Source: Haloarcula salinisoli (GTDB taxonomy: Archaea; Halobacteriota; Halobacteria; Halobacteriales; Haloarculaceae). From it: a DNA stretch of 64,000 nt. The stretch is taken from assembly GCF_019599405.1 (NCBI RefSeq), contig NZ_RKLQ01000002.1, positions 682,001 to 746,000 of the forward strand, in the 5' to 3' direction. Below, piece after piece: positions 5,810-64,000 of this stretch; position 1 is the stretch's first letter, and each line of letters opens with the position of its first letter. The notes under the pieces were generated by a model. It made no database searches and was not told the origin of the DNA. It saw only the letters and a list, made by a program, of their open reading frames with translations. Position numbers and translations under genes: made by a program.

Positions 5810-7261
5810 TCAGTTACTGAAACTGAGTGTCGCCACGGCCCGCCGTTCGAACGCCTCAGCGGACAGTTCCCCGTCTTTGAACTGCTCCATCCACTCGCTA
5901 CGAATCTCCCACGTCGCCACCGTCAGGTCCCCGTCGACGATTGTCGCCTCCAGGCGCTGCGTTCGGACATCGTCGTTGTCGGCCGAGGCGTAGCCGCGTG
6001 CGACCTCCCTGACTTCGTCACCGAGCTCTTTGTTGCCTATCTTCTCCGTCGAATAGGTGAGAGTGCACTTGTCGGGGGCCGCGTGGAAGCTGTGTACTTC
6101 GATGTCTGCCTCGCCGTAGCCGTCGCCGGTGTCGGCACTCGCGGTCGTCCCGGACTCAGTCTGTGAACCACCGCTGACGATCTCGGCAATCGACCCCTCG
6201 ACAATCGGCTGGTCGGTCACGTTCCGTCGGACGGTTATCATCCCGACGCCGACGGCGAGTAGTAACAGTGCGCTGAGACCGACCCCGACGGCGGTGTTCG
6301 AATCGTTCTCGGTATCCGAGGCTGCCGTTCCGTTGTCGGTCTCGGTGGCAGACACCTCGTCAGTCGCGGGCTCGTCGGCGGGTTCGGGCGTCGGTCCGCC
6401 AGCCGTCTCGGTCGGTTCACTCGCGGTCGTTTCGTCCGACTCCTCCGCTGTCGTGTTCGACTCGGCGTCGGAGCTACTGTTGTCCGGCGCACTGCTCGTA
6501 TTGCCGTCGTCGCCGGAGAGGGTATCAGTCTCGTCGCTGTCGCTATCGATACTGCCGCTGTCGCTTGTGTCGTCGCCGGTGTCGTCGCTACTGCTGTCGC
6601 CGCTATCGCCACCGCCGCTGTAGTCGTCGCCACCGTCACTCCCGTCGCCACCGTCGCTGCCGTCGCCACCGTCGCTACCATCGCCACCGTCACTACCGTC
6701 GCCACCGTCGCTACCATCGCCACCGTCACTACCGTCGTCACCATCGCTGCCGTCGCCACCGTCACTACCGTCGTCACCATCGCTGCCGTCGCCACCGTCA
6801 CTACCGTCGTCACCATCGCTGCCGTCGCTGCCATCGCCACCGTCGCTCTCGACGGTCACCTCCTTGGCTGCGCTGTCCCGTACACCCTTTTTATCCGAGG
6901 TCGTGGACGTTATTTCGACAGTCCCGTTCGCCGCGTTCTCCGGCACTGAGACCGTGAGTGTGGGTTCTCGGGTTTCCCCAGGCTCGGTCGACAGGAAGAG
7001 CCACTCGGTGTCCGAGTCCTGCCAGTACCCACCGTCGTCGGTCCGGTCGACTATCTCCCAGCCGTCGGGCAGGGTCGCGTTCAGCGTGTAGGCGCTATCG
7101 TTTTCGCCGGTGTTGGTCAGCGTGAACGTGTACGTGACGTTCTCACCGGGCTGGACCTCGGAGGGTCCGTCTACCGACGTCGTCGCCGGGTCGGCTATCG
7201 CCGGTGCCGCAAGCACCGCGAGGAGGGTCACGACGGCGACACCGAGCAGGGTGCGGTTCAT
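5810..7261 (-). CDS. Surface membrane protein with Ser-Asp-Gly repeat stalk
   Basis: A 483-residue protein. A signal peptide (MNRTLLGVAVVTLLAVLAAPAIA) is followed by an Ig-like NEW3/DUF11-type domain (about 30-135; PGENVTYTFTLTNTGEND), an SDG/GGD repeat stalk (about 140-215), a Ser/Thr/Glu-rich linker (215-320), one transmembrane segment (about 323-343, VGLSALLLLAVGVGMITV) and a roughly 130-residue domain that would be cytoplasmic (FHAAPDKCTLTYS through ATLSFSN). This outside-stalk-inside layout suggests a surface sensor or anchoring protein. Its ATG overlaps the TGA of the upstream G8 gene (ATGA at 7258-7261), so the two are translationally coupled and probably act together at the surface. 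The cytoplasmic domain is not recognised. Confidence 0.75.
   Translation of the reverse strand: MNRTLLGVAVVTLLAVLAAPAIADPATTSVDGPSEVQPGENVTYTFTLTNTGENDSAYTLNATLPDGWEIVDRTDDGGYWQDSDTEWLFLSTEPGETREPTLTVSVPENAANGTVEITSTTSDKKGVRDSAAKEVTVESDGGDGSDGSDGDDGSDGGDGSDGDDGSDGGDGSDGDDGSDGGDGSDGGDGSDGGDGSDGGDGSDGGDGSDGGDDYSGGGDSGDSSSDDTGDDTSDSGSIDSDSDETDTLSGDDGNTSSAPDNSSSDAESNTTAEESDETTASEPTETAGGPTPEPADEPATDEVSATETDNGTAASDTENDSNTAVGVGLSALLLLAVGVGMITVRRNVTDQPIVEGSIAEIVSGGSQTESGTTASADTGDGYGEADIEVHSFHAAPDKCTLTYSTEKIGNKELGDEVREVARGYASADNDDVRTQRLEATIVDGDLTVATWEIRSEWMEQFKDGELSAEAFERRAVATLSFSN
6625..6847 (-). repeat. In-frame Ser-Asp-Gly coding repeat
   Basis: About 220 bases of near-identical 15- and 30-base units (CCACCGTCACTACCGTCGT and variants on the plus strand) encode GSDGGD/GSDGDD repeats in the surface protein. 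The copies are nearly identical at DNA level, so copy number probably changes by slippage or recombination. Confidence 0.85.
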
Positions 7262-10200
7262 TCGTCTCCCCCGCCCTGCCAGCTCTCGACGAGATCCAGT
7301 ATCTTCTGGTCATCGATTATCTCGCCGCCGATGCCGGGGACCGGCTCCTCGTCCTGCCAGTACTCGACTGCGTCCAGTATCTCGCTGTCGTCCATCTTGC
7401 CGTCGTCGTCTTCGTCGAAGGCCTCGGAGACCGACTGGGAGCCCTCGACGGTTATCGTCCCCTGCATGTGGCTCTGATGGGGCTGGCAGTGGTACTCGTA
7501 GGTGCCCTCGACGTCGAACGTGTGCGTGAGCGTGTGGCCCTCGCTCTGGGTGCTGTCGACGCCGCTCCAGGAGGCGTCGTCGGGCTGGCTGTCGACCGTG
7601 ACAGTATGCCCGCCGGCGTCCCAGGTGAACGTGACAGTCGTGCCTGGCTCGACGGTCAGGTCGGCCGGCGAGAACTCGTGGTTTCCGTCGGGCGCGACGG
7701 TGACTGTTTTGTCCGCGTCCGAGTCGCCGCCGTCGTCCGAGTTACCGAGCGTCGACGGGTCGACTTCCTCGCCGTCGATCGTGACTTTGACCGGGATATC
7801 CTTCTCGAGGGACCAGCTGGTAATTTCGCCCTCGTAGAGGTAACTGTCCTTACCGGCAACGATCTGTCCCGAAACAGTGTTCCCCTCGACATCGTCGGGA
7901 CCGCCCGCGTGCTCGCCTTTTTCCACCGCTCCGCTAACGGAGAACTCGTAGTCCGATACCTGGTCATCGAGCCCATCGATGACTATCTCGTGGCGCTCAG
8001 TGCTCCCGTCACCGAGCGTCGACGGGTCGACTTCCTCACCGTCGATTGTAATTTTGATGGGGATGTCTTTATCCAGCGACCAGCCGGTGATCTCGCCATC
8101 GTAGTGATAGTTGTCCTGTTCGCCGCCGATCTCTGCCGACACAGTGTCCTCTTCGATGGAATCTATGACGCTAGCGTCCTCGCCCTTTTTGATCTCTCCA
8201 CTGACAGAGAGCTCGTAATCGGCGTGCTGGTCGTCGAGCCCGTTGATGACTATCTCGTGGGGCTCACCGACAGTGACCTCTTTCGTGGTTTCGATGGTGT
8301 CGCCCGCGTCGTCGGTCACGGTCAGCGTTACGTCGTAGTATCCCGCCTCGTCGAAGGTGTGCTCGACGGTCTCGCCGCTGGCAGTCGCACCGTCGCCAAA
8401 CGCCCACTCGTAGCTGGTGATCGAGCCATCCGTGAGGCTCGACCCGCTCGCGTCGAACGACACTGTCGTCCCGCTCTCGTTCGTGGTCGCAAACCCTAGG
8501 TTACCGAGTGTCGACTGGTCGACTTCCTCGCCGTCGATCGTGATTTCGAGCGGGACGTCCTTCTCGAGGGACCACCTGGTAATTTCACCCGTGTAGTGAT
8601 AGTTGTCCTGTCCGCCGCCGATCTCTCCCGTTGCCGTACTCCCCTCGACAGTGTCCTGCCCGCTCGCGTACTCGCCCTTTTCCAGCGTGCCACTGACGGA
8701 GAGCTCGTACTCCGAGCCCTTGTCGTCGAGCCCGTTGATCAGTATCTCGTGAGTCTCACCGGCAGCGACTTCGGTCGTGGTTTCGCCAGTGTTCCCCGCG
8801 TCGTCGGTCACTGTCAACGTCACATCGTAGAACCCACTGGTGTCGTAGCTATGTTCGACAGTCTTCCCGCTCCCGGTGGTGCCGTCGCCAAACGCCCACT
8901 CGTAGCTGGTAATCGAGTCCGACGGGGTCGACGGGCTCGCGTCGAAGGTGACGGGCTCACTGGCGGTGTCCGTCGACTGGTGGTCGAACGCTGCAACCGG
9001 GCCCTGCCCTTCGGGCGGTTCCTCGGTGACAGTCATCATCGCAGGCGTGTCCATCCACCTGAATTCGTATTCGCCTGAAACCCTGTGTGTCGCGCTGTTC
9101 CCATCCCACGCTGCTGCCTCCGGCTGGGATTTGACATCGGCGGAACTCCACCAGAAGTCGACTTTCGTTCCCGGATGGACGGTCAGGTCGGCCACATAGT
9201 CGGCCCCATAGTCTACAAGACTACGGAGTACCGTACGGTTCTCGAAGACGATGTTATGCTGGTTGTTGTAGAAGCTAACGTCGTCGACATCTTCTTCGTT
9301 CGCGTTGAGGCACACCTGAACGCCGACGTTCAGCCCCTCCATGACGCCGCCGTAGACCCCGACTGGATCCTCGGCCTGGTAGTTCCGGCGGATACCGTGG
9401 CCGTGATACCCGTCGGGGCCGTGACCGCTTTCGCCGTCGACGTTACAGAACTGCGGATTTTCGACACGGAGGTCTGAGCCATACCGGTTTGCTATCATGC
9501 AGTTGCCATATGAACCCATGAAGTACGGGGCCCCTGCGGGGTAGTGCCAGGTCGAGGTGTTGATCCTCGGTCCGATGTTGTACACGGTGAACGTCTCGAC
9601 AACTGACTCGCTTCTCGGACGGGAAAAGCCGTAATCGAAGCCACCAGAGGCGGCAAAGGCCGTATTGTTGCTGAACGATTTCAGCGGGAGGAATCTCGGA
9701 CTGATCGTGTAGGCGGTATCAACGAGCCCATCCTCTTTGGCTAATTCCCCGGGCATCTTGCCATCCAGGGGCTCGTTCCAGAGTGCGAAGGCGTACCCGT
9801 CGTGGCCAGCTGCGACACAGTCGTCGACTGCCACGGCCGGCCCCTGGAGCCAGAACCCTTCACCTTCGTGGCCGAAATCGACCTCTTCTGTCGGGGCCCG
9901 GCCCATTAGATTCAGGTCGTTGTATGTTTCCTTGACATTCCGAGAGCCTTCCGACCGGAGCGCGAAACAGCGCTCGAACGAGCCACGCTCCTTGCCGGCC
10001 TCGGCGACGAACCCGGAGCCGAAGACGTCGTAGGTGATAGAGTCGCGCACGTTCGCGTGCGAACTGTGATTGACGACGCCCCACCCGGGGGAGTGCTGGA
10101 CGACGACGCCGGTTACCTCGTGTGGATCTTCACCGACGCCAGTCTGGTGGAAGTGAAGCCCGTATCGCGCGACGATGTTCGGTTCGCTGGGTTCTTCGGT

Positions 10201-11235
10201 CCCGTGACCGTGGACCCGGTCGCCGCTGTAATCTTGCTCGTCCATCCAGAAGTTCTTGTTCGTCCGCCCGAAGTGATCGACCTCGAGATAGCTGATCGAC
10301 TGGGCCGGCTGCATCACCATGAAGTGGCCCTGCCGATTGATTCGGGCTTCGTTGGTGACATCCGTCTCTTTGATTTCTGACTCGAAGCGGACGTTCCGCG
10401 TGCGGTTGAGCGCGTAGGCCGTCAGCTCCACGTCGAGATTGTTTTCGGGCGGCACGTGGTCGTACTCGAGTGGCTCGTCGAGTTCGACCGTCGCGCCTGA
10501 GACGCTCGCAATCGTTCGCTCGTCGTCCTCGTTCGAACTCGGATCTAATCCCGGAATAACGATTTCGTCGCCCTCGTTCCAGTTTGTCGGTGCCGAGGCG
10601 AGTTCGATGGTGGTGTCGCCGGCCGTCGGCGCACTCGCGAGCTCGTCCCAGCTCGTCTTCTCGGCACCGTGGATCTCGAGTTCCCCCATCGTGATGAGCC
10701 CCTTGCTGATTCGCTCGGGGTCGTCCTTCTCGCTGATGTCCTCGTGGTGGACGATGGTGATGCGGGCCTCGCTGTCCGGTGAAATCGGGTCCGATTCGGT
10801 GCCGATATGCATCGTGCTGTCGGGCCGGGTGACGATGGTTTCAGCCCGGAGATGGCTGTCCGTGTCCGTAGCAAAGGTAAGCGTGCCCGCCACATCGAGA
10901 TTCTTTATTTTCTCGGTGGTGCCGTCGACGGTGAGCGTTACACCGGAGTCGATACGGACGGTCTGGCCCGCTGTGGGCACGCCGTTGTCCCAGACAGCCC
11001 CGTCAGACCACGAGCCGTCCGCCGTCGCGGTCGTCGCCGGCGACGTGCTCTCGATGAACTCGCCGGCCGAACTATCTTCGCCGCTGGCACTCGCCGTCTC
11101 TGTGAGCCCGCCGAGTGTGGCTCCCGCAACCCCGGCCCCTATCGACGCCAGCAGTGCCCGACGTGAGTGTGCGTGTCTGTCCCCCTCGCGGTCCTCTTTC
11201 TCGCTATCCTGGTCCGGTGTCCCTTGGGCTGTCAT
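7258..11235 (-). CDS. Tat-exported G8-domain beta-helix protein with PKD, cupredoxin and EF-hand/dockerin-like domains
   Basis: A 1325-residue exported protein. From the ATG at 11235: twin-arginine signal (SRRALLASIGAGVAGATLGG, about 22-45); a G8 domain (about 70-190, SDGAVWDNGVPTAGQTVRID); a right-handed beta-helix with RYGLHFHQTG and SPGWGVVNHSSHANV motifs (about 190-660); a cupredoxin-like segment lacking copper ligands (ADLTVHPGTKVDFWW); then PKD, 84-residue module, PKD, module, module; an intact cupredoxin (GGHTVTV and YHCQPHQSHMQG); and a C-terminal pair of EF-hand/dockerin-like motifs (DEDDDGKMDDSEIL). G8/beta-helix proteins in animals (CEMIP, TMEM2) act on hyaluronan, so a polysaccharide-binding or cleaving surface role is a reasonable inference. 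A second G8 protein starts at 61420. Upstream ATGs at 11253 and 11280 are possible but would bury the Tat signal. Confidence 0.85.
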   Translation of the reverse strand: MTAQGTPDQDSEKEDREGDRHAHSRRALLASIGAGVAGATLGGLTETASASGEDSSAGEFIESTSPATTATADGSWSDGAVWDNGVPTAGQTVRIDSGVTLTVDGTTEKIKNLDVAGTLTFATDTDSHLRAETIVTRPDSTMHIGTESDPISPDSEARITIVHHEDISEKDDPERISKGLITMGELEIHGAEKTSWDELASAPTAGDTTIELASAPTNWNEGDEIVIPGLDPSSNEDDERTIASVSGATVELDEPLEYDHVPPENNLDVELTAYALNRTRNVRFESEIKETDVTNEARINRQGHFMVMQPAQSISYLEVDHFGRTNKNFWMDEQDYSGDRVHGHGTEEPSEPNIVARYGLHFHQTGVGEDPHEVTGVVVQHSPGWGVVNHSSHANVRDSITYDVFGSGFVAEAGKERGSFERCFALRSEGSRNVKETYNDLNLMGRAPTEEVDFGHEGEGFWLQGPAVAVDDCVAAGHDGYAFALWNEPLDGKMPGELAKEDGLVDTAYTISPRFLPLKSFSNNTAFAASGGFDYGFSRPRSESVVETFTVYNIGPRINTSTWHYPAGAPYFMGSYGNCMIANRYGSDLRVENPQFCNVDGESGHGPDGYHGHGIRRNYQAEDPVGVYGGVMEGLNVGVQVCLNANEEDVDDVSFYNNQHNIVFENRTVLRSLVDYGADYVADLTVHPGTKVDFWWSSADVKSQPEAAAWDGNSATHRVSGEYEFRWMDTPAMMTVTEEPPEGQGPVAAFDHQSTDTASEPVTFDASPSTPSDSITSYEWAFGDGTTGSGKTVEHSYDTSGFYDVTLTVTDDAGNTGETTTEVAAGETHEILINGLDDKGSEYELSVSGTLEKGEYASGQDTVEGSTATGEIGGGQDNYHYTGEITRWSLEKDVPLEITIDGEEVDQSTLGNLGFATTNESGTTVSFDASGSSLTDGSITSYEWAFGDGATASGETVEHTFDEAGYYDVTLTVTDDAGDTIETTKEVTVGEPHEIVINGLDDQHADYELSVSGEIKKGEDASVIDSIEEDTVSAEIGGEQDNYHYDGEITGWSLDKDIPIKITIDGEEVDPSTLGDGSTERHEIVIDGLDDQVSDYEFSVSGAVEKGEHAGGPDDVEGNTVSGQIVAGKDSYLYEGEITSWSLEKDIPVKVTIDGEEVDPSTLGNSDDGGDSDADKTVTVAPDGNHEFSPADLTVEPGTTVTFTWDAGGHTVTVDSQPDDASWSGVDSTQSEGHTLTHTFDVEGTYEYHCQPHQSHMQGTITVEGSQSVSEAFDEDDDGKMDDSEILDAVEYWQDEEPVPGIGGEIIDDQKILDLVESWQGGGDE
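7741..7992 (-). repeat. 84-residue module, copy 3 (most C-terminal)
   Basis: Exactly 84 codons, from HEIVIDGLDDQ to EEVDPSTLGN. Together with copies at 8008-8259 and 8500-8751 it defines a repeated module with conserved YE(L/F)SVSG, EGxT, Y.GEIT.WSL.KD(I/V)P and TIDGEEVD. I do not recognise it as a named domain. Confidence 0.85.
8008..8259 (-). repeat. 84-residue module, copy 2
   Basis: Exactly 84 codons (HEIVINGLDDQ to EEVDPSTLGD). It is separated from copy 3 by only five residues, so the two are adjacent domains without a PKD between them. Confidence 0.85.
8500..8751 (-). repeat. 84-residue module, copy 1
   Basis: Exactly 84 codons (HEILINGLDDK to EEVDQSTLGN). It lies between the two PKD domains of the G8 protein. 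Its DQSTLGN end differs from the DPSTLG of copies 2 and 3, so it is the most divergent copy. Confidence 0.85.
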
Positions 11236-11549
11236 CTTGTTACTACAATTCATAATCGCCCGAAGCAATATAATACGCATTGTTAGTAACTAAATTTATT
11301 AGGCAGATTGGGGGCCGAAAAGTCGGACCGAGTCCGGACCCGTCATCCGAGAGTGTGGTGCGTCACTGGAACAGCAAAACCCCTGGATGGGGCCCCATTC
11401 AAGGGCGGGTTGAACGGTGTCGTCAGGCTCAAGCGCGGGTTGACCGATGGATTCAGGCGGGATTGTATCGACGGTTGGCGCTGTCTCACTGTCGGACCGT
11501 TCGCTGGCGCTCGAGCGGGGTGTAACAGAGCGTTAGTCAGACAGAACAC
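11236..11549. promoter_or_regulatory. Intergenic region with the promoter of the G8 operon
   Basis: These 314 bases lie between the G8 gene start and the end of asd. On the minus strand TATTATAT (about 11268-11275) is about 36 bases before the ATG at 11235, or about 18 before the alternative ATG at 11253. A second AT-rich run (TAATAAATTTAG) lies at about 11288-11300. Two similar 17-base stretches, AAGGGCGGGTTGAACGG at 11401 and AAGCGCGGGTTGACCGA at 11431, form a short direct repeat of unknown meaning. I see no gene here. Confidence 0.4.
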
Positions 11550-61419: not shown

Positions 61420-64000
61420 ATGTCGGAGGATGGGTCGTCCCGACGGACGTTTCTGAAGGGCGCGGCGACCGGCGGCGTCGGGGTCACGCTCGCCGGCGGC
61501 GCGTACACGCAGCGTGCGCGGCTGTTCGGCGGGGGCGACGGTACGAACTCGCTTTCGGGCCCGGACCACATCACGCGGCTCGTCCCGGACGGGCAGGTCA
61601 CGGACCGGGCTACCGGCGGGGTCTGGGCCGACAGCGGGAGCTGGCGGGACGCGGTTCCGGGCGACGGCGCACACGTCCTGATACCCGAGGGACGGGCGGT
61701 GACCCTGGCGAGCGAACTCGACGCGACCTACAGAACTGTGCGCGTCGACGGGCGGCTTCGGGTCGACCCGACGGCCGCCAGCCGGCTGCTGGTCGATACA
61801 CTGGTCGTCGCGGGCACGGGGACGCTCGAACTTGGCACGCCCGACGAGCCGGTCCAGCGGGGTGCCGGCGCCGTGGTCGAGTTCACGGACGACGGCGCTA
61901 TCGACGAGGACTGGGACCCCGAACGGGTGAGCCGCGGGCTGCTGGCGCTCCCGGGGTCGACGGTCCACGTTGCCGGTAGCGAGCGGACCTCGTGGGCGCG
62001 AACGGGGACGGCACCACGGGCTGGCGACCGGTCGCTCTCGCTGGCCGAGGCGCCGACCGGCTGGGCCGAGGGCGACCGCCTCGTGGTCGCCGGCCTCGAC
62101 CCCGACGAGAACCAGGACGAGGCCGTCACCGTCGCCGGCGTCTCGGGGTCGACGGTCGAACTCGACCGGTCGCTGTCCCACGACCACGTCCCGCCACGGG
62201 AGGACTTCGACGCGTACGTCGCCGTGATGGACCGCACCGTCACGCTGCGCTCGGAATCCGCGGCCACCAAGCGCCGCGGGCACGTGATGTTCATGACGAC
62301 TGACGTGCGCGTCCAGCACGCCGCTTTCGATTCGCTTGGTCGGACCGACAAGTCCAGGCCGGTGACCAATCCGGACAACGGGACGCCGCCCGACCCCGAC
62401 ACGCCGAACCCGAAGGCCCGCTACGCCTGTCACTTCCACCGCACCGGCATCGACGCGACCGAGGACCCCCGCGTCGTCGAGGGCTGTGTCGTCGACGGCA
62501 GCCCGGGCTGGGGCTACGTCAACCACCACAGCAACGTCGCCTTCCGGGACAACGTCTCCTACGGCGTGTTCGGGGCGGGCTTTGTCGCCGAAATCGGCAA
62601 CGAAATCGGTGCCTTCGAGGGGAACTTCGCGCTGCGCTCGACCGGGACCGGCGGCGGCCCCGACCGTCGGCAGTTCAAGACGGACCGCGAGGGGGCCATC
62701 GACGACTTCGGCCACGGCGGCTACGGCTTCTGGCTCCAGAGCCCCGGCGTCGCCGTCGACGACAACGTCGCTGCCGGCCACCGCCACCACGGCTTCGTCT
62801 GGTGGACCAGACCGAAACCCGACCGGGAGAAGGACCCCGAGAAATTCGAGGGCATCACCATCGACTTCGCGAACTTCCCGGTCGAGAACGTGACGGGCCA
62901 GGACAGGCTTCTGGCGTCCGACGCGGTGACAGACGGGAAGGTGCCCTCGACACAGGTCCGCTTTCGCTCTTTCGCGGGGAACACCGTCTTCGCCTCGGGC
63001 GGTGGCGCCGACATCTCCCGCCACCGATTCGGCGACGCCCACGACCAGGTCGAGAGCTACAGCGTGGTGGACGAGTTCACGGCGTTCAACCTCGGGGCCC
63101 ACTACAGCCAGTGGGACAGCCGACGGGTCCCCAACGAGGGCGGCGCACAGGGCGGCCAGAACGGCATCTCGATACGCTACAGCGCCAACGTCGTCGTCCG
63201 GAACCCCACACTCGTCGACGGGGTGGGCGGCTACCGCGGCGTCGGCATCAACCGCAACCACGCCCCCCAGAATCTCCGGGTCGAGAACCCCGACATAGAG
63301 GGGTGGTTCACCGGCATCCGCGCGCCGCCCCGCGGGGAGAGCCCGATAACGGGCGGGCGGCTGGACAACGATATCGACGTCCACGTCATCGGCGGGGGCA
63401 CCTCGAACCGCTGGAGCAGCCCCCACGAGGTCGCTATCGAGAACGTCGACTTCGGCGACGGCGGCCGGGCATCGGTGTTCATGGGCGCGGACCTCCAGGA
63501 CGACCTCTACAGTATGCTCTCGCCGAACGACAGCGTCACCCTCGAGGGCACGCCGCTGTACTTCGACAGCCAGCGGCCGGACGTGGTGCCGTTCCCGACC
63601 GAGGCGGACCTCGGCGACGTCGGTGGGGACGAGCTGGGTGACCTCTCTGAGGCCGACCCGGCCGAGTTCGTCGGGAAGTCGAACCGCGAACTGATGAACG
63701 CCTACGGGCTCGCCGTCGAGGGCGAGCCCCTGCCCGACGATGCCGGCGCCAGGTCGGACGTTCTCGGCGGGTTTGCCGCGGGCTCGAACGGGAGCCGGGA
63801 CGCTCCCGCGCCCCTCGACGCGGTCGCCTCGACGGTCGGGTCGGCCCACGAGTTCGGTACGCTCGCCCAGGGTGAACGGCTCTACGTCTACGACGACGCC
63901 GAGTTCCTGACCGTGCCGGGGAAATACGCCGGGCTGTCGTACATCCGCCCCGAGAAAGAGGACCAGGACATCGAGCGGCCGTCGGGCTACCGGCTGGACC
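61420..64000 (+). CDS. Tat-exported G8-domain beta-helix protein, C-terminus outside the window
   Basis: At least 860 residues, no stop before the edge. The start MSEDGSSRRTFLKGAATGGV is a clear twin-arginine signal. A G8 domain (about 60-150, GVWADSGSWRDAVPGDGAHV) leads into a beta-helix with RYACHFHRTGIDATEDPR, VDGSPGWGYVNHHSN, GAGFVAEIGNEIGAFEGNFALRS (core GFVAEIGNEIG) matching the same motifs of the protein at 7258. It lacks the PKD and module repeats in the visible part. By analogy with animal CEMIP/TMEM2 it may bind or cut a polysaccharide at the cell surface. ATG chosen by the signal and the CTTATCT box. Confidence 0.85.
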   Translation, partial: MSEDGSSRRTFLKGAATGGVGVTLAGGAYTQRARLFGGGDGTNSLSGPDHITRLVPDGQVTDRATGGVWADSGSWRDAVPGDGAHVLIPEGRAVTLASELDATYRTVRVDGRLRVDPTAASRLLVDTLVVAGTGTLELGTPDEPVQRGAGAVVEFTDDGAIDEDWDPERVSRGLLALPGSTVHVAGSERTSWARTGTAPRAGDRSLSLAEAPTGWAEGDRLVVAGLDPDENQDEAVTVAGVSGSTVELDRSLSHDHVPPREDFDAYVAVMDRTVTLRSESAATKRRGHVMFMTTDVRVQHAAFDSLGRTDKSRPVTNPDNGTPPDPDTPNPKARYACHFHRTGIDATEDPRVVEGCVVDGSPGWGYVNHHSNVAFRDNVSYGVFGAGFVAEIGNEIGAFEGNFALRSTGTGGGPDRRQFKTDREGAIDDFGHGGYGFWLQSPGVAVDDNVAAGHRHHGFVWWTRPKPDREKDPEKFEGITIDFANFPVENVTGQDRLLASDAVTDGKVPSTQVRFRSFAGNTVFASGGGADISRHRFGDAHDQVESYSVVDEFTAFNLGAHYSQWDSRRVPNEGGAQGGQNGISIRYSANVVVRNPTLVDGVGGYRGVGINRNHAPQNLRVENPDIEGWFTGIRAPPRGESPITGGRLDNDIDVHVIGGGTSNRWSSPHEVAIENVDFGDGGRASVFMGADLQDDLYSMLSPNDSVTLEGTPLYFDSQRPDVVPFPTEADLGDVGGDELGDLSEADPAEFVGKSNRELMNAYGLAVEGEPLPDDAGARSDVLGGFAAGSNGSRDAPAPLDAVASTVGSAHEFGTLAQGERLYVYDDAEFLTVPGKYAGLSYIRPEKEDQDIERPSGYRLD

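Follow-up and report, generated by a model that had tools for sequence, protein, structure and literature searches.

Organization of the locus

The DNA analysed here, referred to as the window, is a stretch of 64,000 nucleotides from Haloarcula salinisoli (contig NZ_RKLQ01000002.1, positions 682,001 to 746,000), and our subject is a pair of overlapping genes within it: one for an exported G8/beta-helix protein of 1325 residues, P0001, and the next one downstream, for a membrane protein of 483 residues. The initial annotation had described P0001 as a G8/beta-helix chain with one degenerate and one intact cupredoxin, and the open reading frame (ORF) and the Pfam matches bear out the G8/beta-helix chain with its intact C-terminal cupredoxin. 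The features are as follows, in window coordinates.

7258–11235, minus strand: P0001, G8/beta-helix protein of 1325 residues with a twin-arginine-type N-terminal signal (RR-containing, assigned by eye); the ATG of this reading is at 11235, and a longer in-frame start lies at 11280
10636–10992, minus strand: G8 domain, residues 82–200 (Pfam PF10162, 70.1 bits against a cut-off of 22.9)
9649–10176, minus strand: CEMIP-type beta-helix, residues 354–529 (Pfam PF24606, CEMIP_beta-hel, 50.9 bits against a cut-off of 27.3)
9016–9234, minus strand: central decayed halocyanin/cupredoxin-like stretch, residues ~668–740, three of four copper ligands missing (sequence comparisons; low-confidence fold)
8773–9003, minus strand: first PKD domain, residues 745–821 (Pfam, above cut-off)
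8500–8751, minus strand: unnamed repeat of ~85 residues, copy 1, residues ~829–912 (borders by eye, start by alignment)
8284–8478, minus strand: second PKD domain, residues 920–984 (Pfam, above cut-off)
8002–8259, minus strand: unnamed repeat, copy 2, residues ~993–1078 (borders by eye, start by alignment)
7741–7992, minus strand: unnamed repeat, copy 3, residues ~1082–1165 (borders by eye, start by alignment)
7444–7698, minus strand: intact cupredoxin, residues 1180–1264, ligands H1210, C1250, H1253 and M1257 (Pfam PF00127)
7261–7437, minus strand: dockerin-like C-terminal module, residues 1267–1325, with an internal duplication; first loop DEDDDGKMDDSE
5810–7261, minus strand: translationally coupled membrane protein of 483 residues, its start overlapping the upstream stop by 4 nt
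6842–7201, minus strand: cohesin-like ectodomain, residues 21–140 of the 483-residue protein (AlphaFold2 model; Foldseek)

A dockerin-like module and a cohesin-like ectodomain in overlapping genes

The last 59 residues of P0001 (1267–1325), which the initial annotation did not mention, form a divergent dockerin-like module with an internal duplication and a single good EF-type loop; this part of the chain does look like a binding module. The duplicated unit is about 22 residues long, and its score was reached by none of 500 shuffles for P0001 and by at most 25 of 500 for 27 of the 31 modules of this type described below. The first repeat has the form DxDxDGxxxxxE and the second is without Asp ligands, so that, by the general ligand pattern of such loops, a calcium loop is not present in both. 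Modules of the same type also occur mid-chain in very large proteins, with open frames of ~2200 to 2600 residues (L088, L092, L093, L096, L100, L105, L108 and L110).

The 483-residue protein consists, in order, of a signal, a NEW3/DUF11 ectodomain, a Gly/Ser/Asp linker, a single membrane helix and a C-terminal domain, the signal and helix being assigned by eye. Pfam reports DUF11 and NPCBM_assoc in the ectodomain. Its AlphaFold2 model, built from a ten-row alignment, has nine strands and a predicted local distance difference test score (pLDDT) of 93.8, and Foldseek places first 5n5p_A (E 1.2e-7), the cohesin of R. flavefaciens ScaB in complex with a dockerin; other cohesins are also among its matches. 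The same cohesin, 5n5p, ranks second (E 0.0057) in a sequence-profile search with the ectodomain. Among the cohesins aligned by VIA-align are 2vo8 (Z 12.4, 2.7 Å over 116), 2w1n (Z 11.7, 3.0 Å over 116), 6kgf (Z 11.6, 2.7 Å over 117) and 2jh2 (Z 11.6, 2.9 Å over 114).

Recurrence of the gene pair

We searched 392 genomes of the order for the module and obtained 47 hits in 31 of them: 31 hits at ORF ends, 15 inside larger ORFs, and one (in G380) interrupted by a stop inside the module and belonging to no ORF, these last 16 falling outside the set of 31 terminal modules. A gene for an anchor-type ectodomain, like that of the 483-residue protein, stands directly after 16 of the 31 terminal modules, in 12 genomes, and in 15 of these 16 pairs the anchor start lies between −31 and +16 nt of the module stop. 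Ten of the pairs had been used in building the search model and six had not. Left out of the count were a spurious row on the opposite strand, three duplicates of one gene, four loci found via the anchor and one found via the core. The pair at L090 was counted; there the anchor gene in its longest reading reaches 179 nt into the upstream gene, and the ectodomain itself follows the stop. The pair at L009, whose anchor ORF has its start upstream in the longest reading, was added by hand; its upstream member is a 79-residue remnant. As a control, 76 genes without a module but with another gene close downstream, taken from loci fetched for other reasons, included none with an anchor-type neighbour. 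A set of 448 gene proxies contained four anchor-type genes, all of which come after a module, one of them after the 79-residue remnant.

The proteins upstream differ among the 12 genomes with pairs, and the adjacency is immediate and mostly overlapping. Within the genome of H. salinisoli the two-gene unit is repeated beside a G8 paralogue of 1251 residues, beside the 79-residue remnant, and at C2:25.6–26.2 kb. The remnant (L009:4881–5120, minus strand) is an exported-protein N-terminus fused directly to a dockerin-like module with the anchor gene next, and looks like the cassette after loss of its passenger. Reverse searching with the ectodomain gave 30 loci, at 11 of which the module ends the upstream gene; at one it is in the same chain, and at one a weak canonical-looking dockerin lies upstream. 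We note two loci of related organization: at L132 (G275) 50 nt separate a canonical-looking dockerin gene from the anchor-type gene after it, and at L134 (G378) the anchor-type protein itself ends in a canonical-looking dockerin.

Canonical dockerin-cohesin pairs in haloarchaea

Canonical Pfam cohesins are common in haloarchaea, with matches above cut-off in 127 of 384 genomes. We inspected two sets of loci, recognizing dockerins by pattern or by eye; a membrane cohesin gene directly follows a dockerin-ending gene at three of the eight loci returned by this search and at eight of 20 taken in order of its ranking (open frames under 600 residues, one per genome), or 11 of 27, one locus being in both sets. 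The overlap in these pairs is most often 4 nt. H. salinisoli has a weak canonical pair of its own, with Dockerin_1 at 19.3 bits and Cohesin at 20 bits, both below their cut-offs. As a dockerin gene followed by a membrane cohesin gene recurs in haloarchaea, the window pair would be a divergent counterpart of this arrangement. Dockerins and cohesins of archaeal methanotrophs have been discussed in PMC9012536, according to which archaeal dockerin-cohesin binding has been verified; no partner of haloarchaeal dockerins was found named in the literature listings and passages covered.

Compared with cellulosomal cohesin-dockerin pairs and the archaeal versions of these, the window has the same C-terminal duplicated EF-type module on an exported protein and the same kind of beta-sandwich candidate partner on a membrane-anchored one, and it shares gene order and overlap with the canonical haloarchaeal pairs. 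It differs in that the second loop of the module is degenerate and in that the membrane protein has a single socket, with no multi-cohesin scaffold there. Elsewhere, about a dozen Pfam-cohesin matches, many of them in large ORFs, are found on each of two contigs (G116, C1:470364–487342; G281, C1:81770–110285), and these clusters are possible multi-cohesin scaffolds in haloarchaea.

Docking to the neighbouring protein or direct binding

Several observations weigh against docking of the module to the ectodomain. Pfam Dockerin_1 misses the module of P0001, the modules of this genome are absent from its three Dockerin_1 hits, and Dockerin_1 is listed for none of 15 module members, for which Pfam gives weak EF-hand signals only. 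The candidate partner is likewise NEW3/DUF11 according to Pfam, with no match to Cohesin. Pilins, integrins, complement C3 and the copper protein YcnI tie with cohesins in VIA-align (Z 11.5–12.7), and since they do so the beta-sandwich fold is evidently one common to many proteins. No anchor-type gene adjoins 15 of the 31 terminal modules, including that of a cellulase-like relative with the same cupredoxin, and 17 of the 30 loci of the reverse search have no adjacent module, so that the ectodomain type must also be used elsewhere. The correlation of module and ectodomain distances (r 0.84 for 15 pairs, reached in none of 5000 permutations) speaks for docking, but would be expected for any two co-inherited genes.

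The strongest alternative is that the dockerin-like module attaches directly to substrate or to the cell envelope, the NEW3 protein being just another surface protein of the operon. The modules that lack an anchor-type neighbour fit this proposal, and genome papers on polysaccharide-degrading haloarchaea propose that C-terminal type I dockerins aid substrate binding (PMC10963439, PMC13260240). Against it stand the immediate and mostly overlapping adjacency behind different upstream proteins in 12 genomes, the identical gene order of canonical dockerin-cohesin pairs, and the case in which only a signal and a module are left before the anchor gene. We regard direct binding as unlikely, and favor, on balance, docking of the module to the ectodomain of the neighbouring protein.

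The C-terminal cupredoxin

Pfam Copper-bind occurs once in P0001, at the C-terminus (residues 1180–1264, 54.4 bits against a cut-off of 21.2), and all four ligands are complete. The domain very likely binds copper, in what would be a type 1 site. The initial annotation was correct both on the intact ligands and on the Cys-to-Met offset, which is 7 (C1250–M1257); in plastocyanin this spacing is one residue longer. An offset of 7 is also seen in both other dockerin-linked cupredoxins, L042 and L010, whereas it is 8 in 12 of 12 stand-alone halocyanins counted. L010 is a protein of the same genome that matches CBM6 and CBM35; we call its N-terminal half cellulase-like, a label of our own, no Pfam catalytic domain having been reported. 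In P0001, L042 and L010 alike the dockerin-like module comes after the cupredoxin, and the short loop, being common to all three, is a trait of the cassette in the cases seen. P0001 thus shares the four ligands and the Copper-bind match with blue copper proteins of the halocyanin/plastocyanin type, and differs from them in its offset, in scoring below the cut-off of the NCBIfam halocyanin model (52.4 bits against 93.8), and in the fusion of the domain to a beta-helix protein and a dockerin-like module. A role for the cupredoxin as electron donor to a lytic polysaccharide monooxygenase (LPMO) was considered and set aside, the genome having no match to LPMO_10, the only such family searched.

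The G8/CEMIP core and its relatives

The G8 and CEMIP beta-helix matches place P0001 with the G8/CEMIP-TMEM2 beta-helix proteins, from which it differs in having a prokaryotic modular tail and in lacking the conserved end of the core. Outside the central stretch the core keeps 94 of 100 near-invariant positions. The 1251-residue paralogue is 66% identical to P0001 over residues 5–663, and L042, the closest relative, from another genus of the same family, is 65% identical over residues 1–662; in both, similarity stops where the central stretch begins, and the core continues at that place into conserved end motifs. A pattern search for two such motifs found at least one in 16 of 23 relatives and neither in P0001.

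A third G8 protein of this genome (window 61420–64000, continuing to L011:6201) has 926 residues, is 41% identical over the core, ends its core in the ordinary way, and has neither a cupredoxin nor a dockerin-like module. A first scan found no named relatives of P0001 as a whole, and a search of genome contigs with four closer rows returned ten loci, two of them haloarchaeal (Halorientalis sp. LUM.68 and Halobacteriales archaeon QS_1_68_20). The unnamed repeat of ~85 residues (HEIVINGLDD...), present in three copies, has no Pfam name, and similar stretches occur in hypothetical proteins of haloarchaeal plasmids. For human TMEM2, the structure paper reports that hyaluronidase activity was not seen and that an active site could not be assigned (PMC10206443).

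A probable decayed cupredoxin relative at the end of the core

The initial annotation had matched a segment in the middle of P0001, which includes ADLTVHPGTKVDFWWSS (residues 682–698), to the C-terminal cupredoxin. The homology holds, residues 660–745 scoring 96 against the C-terminal domain with a shuffle maximum of 56 and none of 1000 shuffles reaching 96. Stand-alone halocyanins of other haloarchaea match the stretch about equally or better (scores 88–106), which removes the need to derive it from the C-terminal domain, and a search of the same 392 genomes pairs it with stand-alone halocyanin-like ORFs (best E 4.1e-7). Aligned with seven halocyanins, the stretch lacks the four residues around the first ligand His and ~14–18 more ahead of the last strands, together with the Cys and the second His; ~20 residues of the cupredoxin fold are thus missing. 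Three of the four ligands are lost, not all of them as had been annotated, the Met column being retained. By these comparisons the stretch is descended from a cupredoxin and is predicted to be incapable of forming a type 1 copper site, and it is likely to be a decayed halocyanin remnant. The frame is open and 94 of 100 near-invariant core positions are kept, so that the gene itself is no pseudogene. As a test of foreign origin, GC content at third codon positions is 0.69 for residues 663–745 against 0.79 elsewhere, with other stretches of the gene also falling to 0.69.

AlphaFold2 with the halocyanin alignment gave a pLDDT of 49.5 and a predicted template modelling score (pTM) of 0.33, compared with 93.8 for the anchor ectodomain from ten rows; this came from only one job with a thin alignment (8 rows), which limits its weight as evidence of decay. 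In VIA-align this poor model resembled cupins and others (Z ≤5.6), with no cupredoxin among the 50 rows listed, a comparison that is uninformative with a model of this quality.

That the central copy is a folded, ligand-free binding module beside a working C-terminal one, as first suggested, is encouraged by the true cupredoxin homology and by the open frame within a well-kept core. Yet the segment is too short for the fold, the model has little confidence, and the stretch occurs in no other G8 protein examined, including the closest, which has an ordinary core end; a binding module here is very unlikely. The doubling with one dead copy, previously remarked on as unusual, is a true oddity, for which a decayed insertion is the best explanation. 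It is highly improbable that the stretch is instead a replacement beta-helix end-cap, cupredoxin-like by convergence: it does occupy the place where the cores of relatives end, and its model is unlike cupredoxins among the rows listed, but the match follows the whole halocyanin motif order, also upstream of the ADLTV motif (SLVDY versus ELVDY), and 29 bases of it are 86% identical at the DNA level.

Discussion

We propose that P0001 is an exported, surface-held G8/CEMIP-type beta-helix protein, probably acting on polysaccharide, whose C-terminal dockerin-like module would plug into the product of the overlapping downstream gene, a membrane protein whose cohesin-like ectodomain would be the socket. 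As this gene overlaps and would be co-translated, each exported molecule would be made together with its own socket, and this putative socket probably holds P0001 at the cell surface. The C-terminal cupredoxin, probably a working type 1 copper site if loaded with copper, would be held beside the membrane, and the central stretch would be what decay has left of a halocyanin at a recombination joint, in the place of the conserved end of the beta-helix core, serving as a linker at most. To this explanation as a whole we assign a probability of roughly 0.6. A polysaccharide substrate is what we infer for the G8 protein.

The account of a dead domain in the middle of the chain gives way to a simpler one in which the middle is a scar and the end is the working part, and the plug-and-socket pair at the C-terminus is the more useful result than the central oddity. 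If the next gene does encode a socket, two small proteins would be enough to test how such proteins are retained on cells in brine, and the two would constitute a salt-tolerant attachment pair for enzyme display. More broadly, there may be an even chance that haloarchaea have a second, divergent plug-and-socket system beside the canonical cohesin-dockerin one, in which modules missed by the profiles would pair with NEW3-type sockets from overlapping genes, and passengers would be exchanged freely before the module, some of them with a blue-copper domain beside the plug.

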